Source: Micropruina sonneratiae
Lineage (GTDB): Bacteria > Actinomycetota > Actinomycetes > Propionibacteriales > Propionibacteriaceae
Reading direction: 5' to 3'
NCBI RefSeq assembly: GCF_025972045.1
Contig: NZ_JAPDHX010000003.1
Span: 124,001 to 188,000, forward strand
DNA: 64,000 nucleotides
The position numbers and the translations under genes were made by a program. The notes below the pieces were generated by a model. The model did no database searches, had not been told where the DNA came from, and worked only from the letters and a program-made list of their open reading frames with translations. How positions within the stretch are numbered: the stretch's first letter is position 1; each line of letters starts with the position of its first letter. Below are positions 4,300 to 54,047 of the stretch, piece by piece.

Positions 4300-5562
4300 A
4301 TGTCCGAGGAACAGGCGGACGTCATCGTCGTCGGGGCCGGCCCCGCGGGCGCAACCACTGCCTGCTGGCTCGCCGATCGGGGTCTGACGGTGGCCCTGTT
4401 GGAGAAGAGCCGGTTCCCGCGCGACAAGGTGTGCGGTGACGGCCTGACCCCCCGAGCGACCAAGCAGTTGCTGCGGTTGGGCATCGACGTGTCCGAAGAG
4501 GCCGGCTGGCTGCACAACAAGGGCCTGCGCGTCTACGGAGGTCGCACCGAGCCGTTCGAACTGCCCTGGCCCGAACTGGCCGAGTTCCCGTCGTTCGGCC
4601 TCGTCCGCAAGCGCGCCGACTTCGACGAACTGCTGGCCCGCCGCGCCGTCGAGCGCGGCGCCACTTTGTACGAGCAGGCGAACGTCACCGGGGCCGTGAT
4701 CGACGACCGCAGCGGACGGGTGACCGGGGTGACCACCAAGGACGGCCGCACGTTCAACGCGCCGCTGGTGGTCGCCGCCGACGGCAACTCCTCACCGGTG
4801 GCCAAGTCGATGGGCCTGCTCAAGAACGCCAAGCGCCCCATGGGCGTCGCCTGCCGCACCTACTTCACCTCGCCGCGCAGCGACGACGAATGGATGGAGT
4901 CCTGGCTGGAGTTGTGGGACGGCAAGCCGGGGGAGTCCAACCTGCTGCCCGGCTACGGCTGGATCTTCGGCATGGGCGACGGCACCTGCAACGTGGGGCT
5001 GGGCACGGTGGCGTCCACGGCGACCTCGCAGAAGCTGAACTACCGCGAACTGCTGCAGACCTGGCTCGCCAACACTCCCGAGCAGTGGGGTTTCACTCCC
5101 GACAACCAGGTCGGCGGCATCGCCTCCGCCGCCCTGCCGATGGCCTTCAACCGCAAGCCCGCCTACACCCGTGGGCTGCTGCTGGTCGGCGACTCCGGCG
5201 GCATGGTCTCGCCGTTCAACGGCGAAGGCATCCCCTACGCCATGGAGGCCGGCGAGCTGGCGGCCGACGTCGTCGCCCGCGCCCACGCCGAGGGGGTCGG
5301 GACGCCGGCCGCCGAGAAGGCGCTGGCGTCCTATCCGGCACAGCTGGCCCACGAGTGGGGCGGGTACTTCCGGCTCGGCCAGATCTTCGTGAAGCTGATC
5401 GAGCACCCGCAGGTGATGCGGGTGTGCACCCGCTACGGGTTGCCGCGGCCCGCGCTGATGCGCTTCACCATCAAGTTGCTGGCCCACCTTTATGACACCA
5501 AGGAAGGTGATTGGATGGATCGCGTGATCCACACCGTATCGAGGGTGGTTCCCGCAGCATGA
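4300..5562 (+). CDS. Geranylgeranyl reductase family flavoprotein (likely menaquinone side-chain reductase)
   Basis: This 420-residue FAD-dependent oxidoreductase has an N-terminal Rossmann motif VVGAGPAGATTA near residue 10 and a second FAD-contact segment (GDSGGMVSPFNGEGI) near residue 305. The family saturates isoprenoid double bonds; in actinomycetes one member (MenJ) partly reduces the menaquinone tail. Its place between menF and nuoA, with a polyprenyl synthase after nuoN, supports that role. The start at 4300 is chosen because AGGAG lies at 4291-4295; the in-frame ATG at 4273 has no comparable ribosome site. A role in archaeal-type lipid or chlorophyll synthesis is not supported here. 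Confidence 0.85.
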   Translation: MSEEQADVIVVGAGPAGATTACWLADRGLTVALLEKSRFPRDKVCGDGLTPRATKQLLRLGIDVSEEAGWLHNKGLRVYGGRTEPFELPWPELAEFPSFGLVRKRADFDELLARRAVERGATLYEQANVTGAVIDDRSGRVTGVTTKDGRTFNAPLVVAADGNSSPVAKSMGLLKNAKRPMGVACRTYFTSPRSDDEWMESWLELWDGKPGESNLLPGYGWIFGMGDGTCNVGLGTVASTATSQKLNYRELLQTWLANTPEQWGFTPDNQVGGIASAALPMAFNRKPAYTRGLLLVGDSGGMVSPFNGEGIPYAMEAGELAADVVARAHAEGVGTPAAEKALASYPAQLAHEWGGYFRLGQIFVKLIEHPQVMRVCTRYGLPRPALMRFTIKLLAHLYDTKEGDWMDRVIHTVSRVVPAA

Positions 5563-47888: not shown

Positions 47889-48287
47889 ATGGCGAAGATC
47901 AGCACCGACGAACTCCTTGACGCCTTCAAGGAGATGACCCTGATCGAGCTCTCCGAGTTCGTGAAGCAGTTCGAGGACACCTTCGGCGTGACCGCCGCGG
48001 CCCCGGTTGCCGCTGCTGCCGCTCCGGCCGCCGCCGCCGGCGGCGAGGGCGGCGAGGCCGCCGCCGAGGAGGAGTCCTCCGAGGTCGACGTCATCCTCGA
48101 GTCCGCGGGTGACAAGAAGATCCAGGTCATCAAGGAGGTGCGCGCGCTCACAAGCCTGGGCCTCAAGGAGGCCAAGGATCTGGTCGAGGCCGCCCCGAAG
48201 CCGGTCCTGGAGAAGGTCGCGCGCGACGCGGCCGCCAAGGCGAAGGAGGCCCTGGAGGCCGCCGGCGCCAGCGTCACCATCAAGTGA
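47889..48287 (+). CDS. rplL: 50S ribosomal protein L7/L12
   Basis: L7/L12 (132 residues) is the multicopy stalk protein that recruits translation factors. The N-terminal dimerisation domain ([21 protein letters not shown]) is followed by an Ala/Gly-rich hinge (residues 38-58) and the C-terminal factor-binding domain ([24 protein letters not shown]). It lies 18 bases after rplJ and shares its transcript. Confidence 0.97.
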
Positions 48288-48426: not shown

Positions 48427-48474
48427 GCACACAGAATCGGCGGCGGAACGCGAGGTTCCGCCGCCGATTGTGCC
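48427..48474. terminator. Strong hairpin after the small secreted peptide gene
   Basis: AATCGGCGGCGGAAC (48435-48449) pairs perfectly with GTTCCGCCGCCGATT (48455-48469), and outer arms GCACA/TGTGC extend the stem past a small bulge. It lies 34 bases beyond the stop of the minus-strand peptide gene and probably terminates it; it could also back up the rplL terminator from the other side. Confidence 0.7.
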
Positions 48475-48507
48475 TACGGGGGTGGGAGGCTGGATCAGGT
48501 GGAAGGA

Positions 48508-48651
48508 TCAGCGGTTGGAGATGATCCTGCTCACAGGCCACTCGCCGAACCCGCCCAATGCCTGGGTCGACTCGTTGGAGGCGACGGGCACGGTCGAGAT
48601 GGCGAGTAGCGCCGCGACGGCCACGAGGGCTTTGCGGAAGGTCTTGTTCAT
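48508..48651 (-). CDS. Small secreted peptide precursor, 47 residues (candidate signalling peptide)
   Basis: A short frame from ATG 48651 has GGGGGAACC as ribosome site and a TTGACA/TAGCGT promoter (18-base spacing) upstream. The product begins MNKTFRK, continues with a hydrophobic stretch (ALVAVAALLAISTVPV) and has a likely signal-peptidase site after PVA, leaving about 23 residues ending EWPVSRIISNR. It is transcribed divergently from an XRE/TPR-like regulator, 106 bases between starts. That pairing resembles signal-peptide genes next to RRNPP receptors in Firmicutes. No homologue was recognised, so the pheromone role is inference; a secreted antimicrobial or envelope peptide is possible. 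Confidence 0.7.
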   Translation of the reverse strand: MNKTFRKALVAVAALLAISTVPVASNESTQALGGFGEWPVSRIISNR

Positions 48652-48685
48652 GGTTCCCCCGGAAGTGTGCTGTATCTGTTGACAA

Positions 48686-48715
48686 ACGCTACTGCAGACT
48701 TGACGGACGTGTCAA
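48686..48715 (-). promoter_or_regulatory. Promoter of the small peptide gene overlapping a palindromic operator
   Basis: On the minus strand TTGACA (48715-48710) and TAGCGT (48691-48686) are 18 bases apart. The -35 box is the first half of the palindrome at 48700-48715, so a protein bound there would control this promoter. Confidence 0.6.
48700..48715. promoter_or_regulatory. Palindromic operator TTGAC-N6-GTCAA, copy 1
   Basis: TTGACGGACGTGTCAA has perfect five-base arms around six bases. It lies between the divergent peptide and regulator genes. A further half-site GTTGACAAA lies at 48678-48686. A near-identical palindrome ends the regulator gene at 50046-50061. Confidence 0.6.
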
Positions 48716-48757
48716 CTAAAGGTCAGACTGGCTGGAAAAGCCCCTAGGAGGTGCGAC

Positions 48758-50065
48758 TTGACCGCTTCGCTGACCCAGGACGGGTTTGGCGCACGGCTTC
48801 GCGCTACCCGGAAAAGGATGGGTCTCTCTCAGACCGAGTTGGGTGGCGACCGGTACAGCGGCAGCTACATCTCGCACCTGGAGAGCGGCCGGCGTGCCGC
48901 CTCAGCCGAGGTCATCGAGTTTCTGGCCATGCGTTTGGGCGTGACGGCTGACGAGCTTGGCATGGAGCCGAGCCTGCCCGAGCCCATTGACAGCCTTGAC
49001 AACAACACCCACGCGCTCGAACACCTGCTCGTCGCCGAGCGGGCCTGGTACGACCGTGACTGGGCCACCGCCGGTGAGCTGGCGACCCGAGCGGCGGCCT
49101 CTGCGCTGCAGGCCGGGCAGCTCGAGCGGCACTGGCAGGCCCTCTACGTTCAGACCCAGGCCGCGCTGGCCGAGGGCGACTACGCCGACGCCATTCATTT
49201 CGCCGAACTGCTGGCGACCCACCAGGTCGCGCTGTCGTCGCCGACCCTGCGGGCCCAGGCGCTGTGCCTGTCCGCCACCGCGCACCGGGTCGGTGACGAA
49301 TTGCCGATGGCGCTGGTGCACGCCGGGCAGGCCGTCGAGTTGTCGACCGATGCGCCCCCGATCGTGCTTGCCGACGCCCTGATGTGCCTTATCAGCACCG
49401 CTTTGGAGGCCGGCCGTCCCACCGCCGAGACCGATCGGTTGTGCCAACGCCTCGAGGACGTCTCGCTGCACGTCGAGTCGGGCCACGCCCGGGGCGTCAT
49501 CTACTGGGCGCTGGGCACGGCGTCCTACAAGTCGGGCAACATCAGCAAGGGTCTGGAACTGCACGACCTGGCGATGGAGCTACTCAGCCCGCGGCGTGAC
49601 CTGCGGTTGTGGCTGCGCCTCAACCGCTCCGCCGCCACCTGTCGCCTGGACGCCGGCATCACCGACGGCGTGAAAGAGATGCTCGACGCGTCGCGTGGCG
49701 GGCTGAACCTGATCGGCAGCGTGTTCGACGTGTTCGAGCTGCGTCACGCGGAGGCCAAGCTGCAGCTTCTCGACGGTCAACCGCAGCGCGCCCACGACCT
49801 GGTGACAGCACTGCTCGCCGACGAGGCGATGCGGCCGGCCGTCATCAGCAACGGCCGCGGCGAGGAACTCCTAGCCGAGATCGAACTCGACCTGGGTCGC
49901 ACCGAGCGGGCCCGCAGCGCCTACGTCCGCGCCGCAGGACTGTATGGCAAGCAGGAACAGTTCCGTCAGGCCAACGAGTGCTGGCAGCGTGCTGCAAACC
50001 TGGAAGCGGCAACGTCCACGATATGGACAGTGTCGCATCCGTTAGTTGACAGGCGTGTCAAGTGA
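48758..50065 (+). CDS. XRE-family transcriptional regulator with TPR-like C-terminal domain
   Basis: This 435-residue protein has an XRE helix-turn-helix at residues 8-66 (LRATRKRMGLSQTELGGD, SYISHLESGRRAAS) and a long all-helical region (about 80-425) with Ala-rich paired helices typical of TPR repeats. That is the domain layout of RRNPP peptide-responsive regulators. The start is TTG at 48758, set by AGGAGG at 48746-48751. It is divergent from a signal-peptide-bearing small peptide gene, with a TTGAC-N6-GTCAA palindrome between them and a second copy forming its last codons. It probably controls both its own region and the peptide gene; peptide binding is not proven. Confidence 0.85.
   Translation: MTASLTQDGFGARLRATRKRMGLSQTELGGDRYSGSYISHLESGRRAASAEVIEFLAMRLGVTADELGMEPSLPEPIDSLDNNTHALEHLLVAERAWYDRDWATAGELATRAAASALQAGQLERHWQALYVQTQAALAEGDYADAIHFAELLATHQVALSSPTLRAQALCLSATAHRVGDELPMALVHAGQAVELSTDAPPIVLADALMCLISTALEAGRPTAETDRLCQRLEDVSLHVESGHARGVIYWALGTASYKSGNISKGLELHDLAMELLSPRRDLRLWLRLNRSAATCRLDAGITDGVKEMLDASRGGLNLIGSVFDVFELRHAEAKLQLLDGQPQRAHDLVTALLADEAMRPAVISNGRGEELLAEIELDLGRTERARSAYVRAAGLYGKQEQFRQANECWQRAANLEAATSTIWTVSHPLVDRRVK
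50046..50061. promoter_or_regulatory. Palindromic operator TTGAC-N6-GTCAA, copy 2, inside the regulator 3' end
   Basis: TTGACAGGCGTGTCAA encodes the last residues of the regulator and matches copy 1 in 14 of 16 positions. A TTGACA box follows at 50074-50079. It may control transcription of the structured region downstream or feed back on the regulator. Confidence 0.55.
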
Positions 50066-50216
50066 TGGTGTGATTGACACATCGACGGCACAACCCCCCG
50101 ATAGCGTCGTTGATGGGCACTGCTGATCGGTGTTCGCCTTGTGAGTTTCCTCCCGTTGCCCGAGGCGAACACCGATTCAGTGATTACAGGGGCTGCTCCC
50201 CCAGAGCGGCCCCTTT
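50066..50216 (+). ncRNA. Candidate structured RNA or 3' UTR with two hairpins
   Basis: After the regulator stop there is no convincing gene for 508 bases. Within the first 151, ATCGGTGTTCGCCT (50126-50139) pairs perfectly over 14 bp with AGGCGAACACCGAT (50163-50176). An 11-bp hairpin (50188-50214, AGGGGCTGCTC with GAGCGGCCCCT) followed by TTT looks like an intrinsic terminator. TTGACA at 50074 with TAGCGT at 50102 repeats the boxes of the peptide promoter but with 22-base spacing. The stretch may be a small RNA controlled by the upstream palindrome, or just the regulator's 3' end. Confidence 0.4.
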
Positions 50217-50444: not shown

Positions 50445-50473
50445 TTGAAGACTTGTAGCCGGTGTACTATAGT
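50445..50473 (+). promoter_or_regulatory. Promoter of rpoBC
   Basis: TTGAAG at 50445-50450 and TATAGT at 50468-50473 are 17 bases apart, the best promoter match in the gap. It gives a leader of about 95 bases before rpoB. Confidence 0.65.

Positions 50474-50573: not shown

Positions 50574-54047
<3,474 letters not shown>

Follow-up and report, generated by a model that had tools for sequence, protein, structure and literature searches.

A putative peptide-signalling circuit with an XRE-TPR receptor and a C-loop RNA in Propionibacteriaceae, and its likely relatives in other Actinobacteria

Results and Discussion

Our analysis of a 64,000-nucleotide stretch of Micropruina sonneratiae DNA (hereafter the window) indicates, with a probability that we put at about 0.8, that the region between rplL (47889-48287) and rpoB (50574-54047) holds a self-contained, RRNPP-like peptide-signalling circuit whose conserved output is an RNA with C-rich loops. 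The pairing of a peptide gene with a regulator gene, the peptide motif, its repeats, the selection on its codons, the TPR fold, the two operators, the structure of the RNA and the strict co-occurrence of RNA and regulator could be established from the sequences. Export, processing, import and binding of the peptide, action of the RNA in trans and the sign of regulation are inferred, and there are no wet-laboratory data. We also hold as probable, with rather less assurance, a broader reading: a class-wide family of peptide pheromones (WP and CC types) with XRE-TPR receptors, present on Streptomyces plasmids too, together with a two-operator circuit in Propionibacteriaceae whose sole other target is the C-loop RNA and which is convergent with agr-RNAIII.

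The peptide gene and its flanking signals

The first-pass annotation had placed a 47-codon ORF on the minus strand of this region, and both the sequence and the ORF listing agree with its coordinates (Table 1). The ORF is divergent from the regulator gene, at a distance of 106 bp. By hydropathy only, without SignalP or secretome data, its product has a positively charged n-region followed by a hydrophobic core, which is compatible with the signal sequence proposed earlier. The ribosome site, promoter and terminator hairpin claimed for this gene were all found, with some reservations. The ribosome site is the G-rich GGGGGA (48660-48655) and not the canonical AGGAGG, the promoter combines a perfect −35 box with a poor −10 box, and the hairpin has no T-run. 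Judged by its sequence, the inverted repeat after the stop codon is a probable terminator lacking a T-run; a comparable hairpin is present in L031, L032, L004 and L005. Two palindromic operators and a structured RNA element had gone unnoticed.

When a caller for signal peptides with a WP or CC ending was run on the whole window, the 47-codon ORF was the sole call. This ORF is therefore more than chance, as no other ORF was picked out. The position between rplL and rpoB, also pointed out before, is conserved: at least one of these two neighbours was seen at 31 of the 34 family loci.

Table 1. Positions of the features at the peptide/regulator locus, numbered from the first letter of the window.
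Feature	Position	Strand	Description
Inverted repeat after the peptide stop codon	48435..48469	minus	perfect 15 bp (48435-48449/48455-48469), loop GCGAG, no T-run
Signal-peptide ORF	48508..48651	minus	47 aa, ATG start; product MNKTFRKALVAVAALLAISTVPVASNESTQALGGFGEWPVSRIISNR; predicted pro-pheromone, C-terminal core GGFGEWP
Peptide promoter	48686..48715	minus	−35 TTGACA (48715-48710), 18 nt, −10 TAGCGT (48691-48686); consensus reading, no transcript data
Operator O1	48700..48715		TTGACGGACGTGTCAA; divergent intergenic region; predicted, no binding data
Regulator	48758..50065	plus	435 aa; XRE-HTH (residues 7-67) and TPR (79-426); predicted cytoplasmic peptide receptor
RNA promoter	50046..50074	plus	−35 TTGACA (50046-50051), 17 nt, −10 TGTGAT (50069-50074); no transcript data
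Operator O2	50046..50061		TTGACAGGCGTGTCAA; overlaps last regulator codons and RNA promoter −35; predicted, no binding data
Structured RNA element	50080..50182	plus	two hairpins with C-rich loops; fold and covariation
RNA hairpin 1	50080-50115	plus	loop with CCCCCC 50094-50099
RNA hairpin 2	50118-50182	plus	loop with CCUCCC 50149-50154

Pairing of peptide and regulator in Propionibacteriaceae

At all 34 Propionibacteriaceae loci examined, the regulator has beside it a divergent ORF for a signal peptide with a (G)GxGxWP-like motif. A strict caller detected such a motif-bearing ORF at 31 of the 34, against 7 of 1,700 dinucleotide shuffles; these and the other shuffled controls make no correction for relatedness. 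The three loci missed by the caller carry the motif on inspection. The L039 peptide has a 1-nt frameshift within a G-run, the L056 peptide reads GGQGSYP, in which SYP replaces WP, and the L062 peptide reads GGGEGHWTP (HWTP). L064 was also missed by the ORF filters, on ribosome-site strength, and L039, L056, L062 and L064 were all judged by eye. At L065 the caller picked the wrong ORF, and the true peptide is ..GGGGDHGVWP.

Of the changes that separate the peptide codons of L041 and L042, 14 are synonymous and 2 nonsynonymous. When the three closest Micropruina relatives are compared with one another, the pN/pS ratio of the peptide lies at 0.45-0.49; it is 0.34 in g7 and near 1 for some distant pairs, as is expected where constraint falls only on the core. 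Measured by these substitutions, the peptide codons are under purifying selection. Regulator homologues without an adjacent small ORF, or peptide codons not conserved in relatives, would each have refuted the proposed peptide-signalling pair. Neither was the case, since the small ORF is present at all of the family loci and at about half or more class-wide, and the codons are conserved as just described.

Several precursors contain tandem repeats: five AGGGIWPK units in L044, three AGGGIWYK in L066, three GEGIWY in L043, three GNWPDPM in L081, three GGSWPT in L122 (also written as three PTVGGSWPT) and three DISWP in L088. There are synonymous codon differences between the units in L044, L066, L081 and L122, and the spacers vary in residues. 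Repeat units of this kind mark the released peptide or active core. The pattern fits a precursor from which cleavage would release the same signal several times over, a processing that is inferred from the repeats. The genome that contains L043 has a second regulator-peptide pair (L024, G021:C77, 659-877) with three ADRGIWY units as against GEGIWY; the two pairs in one genome suggest diverged specificity, with two pheromone types.

The regulator

The regulator gene starts with TTG and has AGGAGG at 48746-48751. An XRE helix-turn-helix had been assigned to the N-terminus of its product, and Pfam confirms it (HTH_31, E 5e-10). The Pfam TPR matches are weak, and no NCBIfam family matched at 1e-5. 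The AlphaFold model, built from 61 homologues with a pLDDT of 93.3, has paired helices throughout residues 79-426 and confidently predicts an all-helical TPR superhelix of about eight TPRs. Foldseek search of this model against the PDB found TPR superhelices, including LGN, MalT domain III (TM 0.71 by target), NprR (TM 0.57 by target) and PlcR with PapR7 and DNA (E 2.6e-4, TM only 0.22/0.31). A C-terminal domain other than a TPR fold would also have refuted the proposed peptide-signalling pair, and both AlphaFold and Foldseek gave a TPR fold. A profile match to PlcR (E 5.7e-8) covers the HTH and some TPRs; generic TPR proteins score higher.

W250 and R287 are 98% conserved among the 61 sequences; like R177, W285 and D324, each lies on the first helix of a TPR unit. 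In TPR proteins, the first helices of the units usually line the concave, ligand-binding face. The genome has six SBP_bac_5 (Opp-type) proteins, whose presence proves little because such proteins are almost universal. Together, these six proteins and the conserved A-helix residues are only compatible with Opp import and TPR binding, both of which are inferred.

The nearest named relatives are Micropruina MAGs (82-84% identity of the regulator), and a homologue search of genome contigs gave no more than the two nearest loci of Micropruina. By regulator profile, homologues are present in 35 of 199 Propionibacteriaceae genomes. Searches of phages and IMG/VR viral contigs found no relatives, so no arbitrium-like viral version was seen.

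Operators

The exact sequence TTGACN6GTCAA occurs at two sites only in the 3.5-Mb genome, both of them at the peptide/regulator locus. A promoter −35 box (TTGACA) falls within each of them, that of the peptide gene in O1, where the box is an operator half-site, and that of the RNA in O2. TTGACN5-7GTCAA was found within 200 bp upstream of the regulator at 29 of the 34 family loci and, by the strict pattern, at the 3′ end of the regulator at 22 of the 34, against 0.0004 per shuffle. O2 is conserved as DNA, because it is retained outside the coding sequence where the regulator ends earlier, past the stop codon (L035, L038, L039). The layout of the RNA promoter is repeated in relatives. Both operator-linked promoters were read by eye; the automatic promoter scan demands a better −10 and lists only a site before rpoB (50445-50473).

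A wider regulon was considered and rejected, as other TTGACN5-7GTCAA sites in the relatives are no commoner than those of a reversed-pattern control. The recurrent sequence TTGACTGGGGGTCAA in family genomes (L121 about 1145, G000:C10:316645) was likewise discarded as an operator, since it reads as a tRNA gene. The site TTGACAGACTTAGTCAA (N7; L120 about 1190, G000:C11:86190), on the same contig as the locus and about 86 kb upstream of it, is possibly an extra target or chance.

The structured RNA element

The element downstream of O2 folds with an MFE z of −4.8. In the 21 loci compared, compensatory changes affect 8 of the 13 pairs of hairpin 2, and there were 53 double-change cells against 17.1 ± 4.4 in shuffled data (score 0.547 against 0.295), a covariation signal that is destroyed by sliding the pairing partners. 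The RNA model R1 matches the element of the window at E 5e-17. Strong R1 matches (E<1e-10) were found in 22 of 198 family genomes, all 22 regulator-bearing and matched at the regulator locus; the rest were few and weak. R1 was built from regulator-adjacent loci, so the informative part of this search is the absence from regulator-less genomes. At distant loci (g7, L049), a CCCCC loop is kept on unrelated stems.

An RNA acting on its own is not the only possible reading of this element, which might be the 5′ leader of rpoB. The peptide circuit would then set rpoBC expression, with no free regulatory RNA. The linkage to rplL and rpoB given above fits such a leader, the lack of a T-run after either hairpin makes read-through possible, and the rpoB start is only about 390 nt further downstream. 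However, rpoB has the separate promoter-like site ahead of it, the roughly 160 family genomes without the regulator, which must all have rpoB, gave no strong R1 match, and L043 and L044 are rpoB-linked yet without O2 and the RNA. We therefore consider an rpoB leader unlikely, though not negligible.

Loop 1 of the Micropruina RNA pairs with the peptide ribosome site at −14.5 kcal/mol, against −5.5 kcal/mol for shuffled leaders (L037). This pairing is absent in the sister genus g9; it was rejected as a conserved feature and kept only as a hint. The RNA loops could pair with G-rich ribosome sites, and action in trans is an inference.

Proposed circuit

In the peptide-signalling circuit that we prefer, with the C-loop RNA as its output, the 47-codon precursor would be exported via Sec and cut back to a short peptide roughly centred on G-G-F-G-E-W-P, which an oligopeptide permease would bring back into the cytoplasm. 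There the regulator may bind the peptide on the concave side of its TPR superhelix. A regulator dimer is predicted to occupy the 16-bp palindromes TTGACN6GTCAA, which contain the −35 hexamers of the two promoters. O1 would control the peptide gene's own promoter, shared with the regulator gene, and O2 the downstream RNA promoter. Peptide binding would switch both promoters, so that the signal feeds back on itself and the RNA with two C-rich loops is expressed. For the regulatory sign, which is inferred, we lean towards repression relieved by the peptide given that a perfect −35 box falls under the operator. Peptide-dependent activation remains open as a serious possibility because the −10 boxes are poor. 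The earlier inference of an RRNPP-analogous system in an actinomycete gains support from the adjacent ORF, the codon conservation and the TPR fold, while secretion, import and binding are still inferred.

Comparison with known systems

Like the RRNPP systems (PlcR-PapR, NprR-NprX, Rgg-SHP, ComR-ComS, PrgX), the locus has an XRE HTH and TPR receptor of 250-500 aa, a small neighbouring ORF, whose export signal at the window locus is inferred from hydropathy only, and palindromic operators at the pheromone promoter. Those systems belong to Firmicutes, whereas the present one is found in Actinobacteria, has about eight TPRs and has WP- or CC-ending cores that are often tandemly repeated. In addition, the regulon in this genome seems limited to the locus itself, with a structured RNA as its conserved second target. 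The architectural features, namely the size of the HTH-TPR receptor and the adjacent propeptide gene, are present, and on these the locus would work like an RRNPP system, with import and binding inferred.

In Staphylococcus, the secreted-peptide circuit agr has as its output RNAIII, a structured RNA whose loops are C-rich, and in this respect the locus is similar. Unlike agr, it has no histidine kinase, no AgrB-type processing and no sequence relation, but a one-component cytoplasmic receptor; no AgrB, AgrC or AgrA genes are next to the locus, where the neighbours are rplL and rpoB. The 6C RNA of Actinobacteria (Rfam) likewise has two hairpins with C-rich loops. The RNA of the window gave no Rfam match at gathering or permissive E-values, 6C included, which rules out 6C RNA, and it differs also in being found only beside the regulator. 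The NsdA family TPR-like regulatory protein (NCBIfam NF053720) weakly matches 10 of the 61 receptor relatives (best E 2.5e-9), whereas the protein of the window has no match at 1e-5 and the model has no peptide partner.

Peptide signalling through cytoplasmic receptors has been treated as a Firmicutes trait. The largest RRNPP survey (RRNPP_detector) covers Firmicutes and viruses only and describes the signals of Actinobacteria as small molecules (PMC10075063). We found no description of RRNPP-like systems in Actinobacteria in the literature searched. A prior description cannot be excluded because preprints and most subscription journals were outside that search. It looks as if a sludge-type actinomycete and many other Actinobacteria, including Streptomyces, have a peptide "language" so far described only in Firmicutes. 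If so, a phylum that counts for much in industry and medicine would gain signals that are encoded in genes and can be synthesized, and for dozens of species the receptor, the operator and the predicted core of the peptide would be named. The locus would also be an uncommon instance of a peptide circuit coupled to a structured RNA. The family would likewise supply candidate receptors for the question of how Streptomyces responds to imported oligopeptides such as the BldK signal. In Streptomyces coelicolor, this signal is an extracellular oligopeptide imported by an Opp-type transporter (PMC11303876). No test links its cytoplasmic receptor and gene to the XRE-TPR family, and it is a lead only.

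Spread beyond the family

Receptor homologues occur in many families outside Propionibacteriaceae. A signal peptide tagged WP or with a C-terminal CC was found for 52 of the 98 entries outside the family, against 2 of 490 partly shuffled controls; about a dozen of the 98 are second copies of single loci. About half of these distant homologues have no peptide by the strict caller, which may mean a looser pairing in those groups or peptides that escape the caller. Among 16 other XRE loci only two were tagged, both being members of the receptor family themselves, such as the paralogue L024 with its triple ADRGIWY. The receptor tree splits into a WP clade (54 entries) and a CC clade (65 entries), and the peptide type follows the tree. 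Class-wide, the peptide gene may be upstream or downstream of the regulator and divergent, convergent or on the same strand, and it keeps its place next to the receptor. The part made up of the O1/O2 operator and the RNA is found in Propionibacteriaceae alone. Families outside it have the pair too, mostly without this operator.

The small peptide could instead be an output, that is, a bacteriocin-like, toxin-like or surface peptide, with the regulator answering another ligand and the TPR region not sensing the peptide. Adjacent regulation alone could explain the linkage, small secreted peptides beside XRE regulators are common among bacteriocins, and MalT domain III, a good structural match, comes from a sugar-responsive regulator. 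We nevertheless find an output peptide improbable. Peptide type tracks receptor phylogeny, and the gene changes position yet stays beside the receptor. Only about 6-9 residues are conserved, and the tandem repeats have variable spacers, which fits a processed signal and not a bacteriocin; at the window locus, moreover, there are no immunity or export genes alongside.

A type I toxin-antitoxin-like module, with the peptide as membrane toxin, the C-rich RNA as antisense and the XRE protein as accessory repressor, would agree with the good loop 1 pairing in Micropruina but is scarcely credible, as that pairing is lost in g9, the peptide C-termini are polar and repeat-bearing, unlike membrane toxins, and the pair is found without the RNA outside Propionibacteriaceae.

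To return to the predicted pheromones, the CC-type peptides of f3 (..WCC; L069-L079, L151-L166) are mostly convergent and downstream of the regulator. The peptides of f23 (L093-L101, L171-L174, L183, L189) are divergent, start with GTG or ATG and end with WPxMCC or xCC, and these ends sit about 12 residues after an AxA-like site. In f36, L126 and L127 have TGTCAA-TTGACA half-sites at the corresponding position 5′ of the regulator, though no peptide ORF was found there.

The pair is also carried by Streptomyces plasmids, in S. globisporus C-1027 (SGLP1), S. parvus and Streptomyces sp. NBC_01178. On SGLP1, the peptide is WP_158514079.1 (...GEDVEWP...DDEVEWP), with two VEWP units, and the regulator is WP_010056305.1. 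The two are located at 2313-2480 and 3498-4733 of L192, with an acyl-carrier-protein gene between them. On a plasmid of S. goshikiensis (L196), a hypothetical protein ending with KDIPLCC (5083-5298) is encoded just 3′ of an XRE regulator, and this protein is possibly a CC-type partner.
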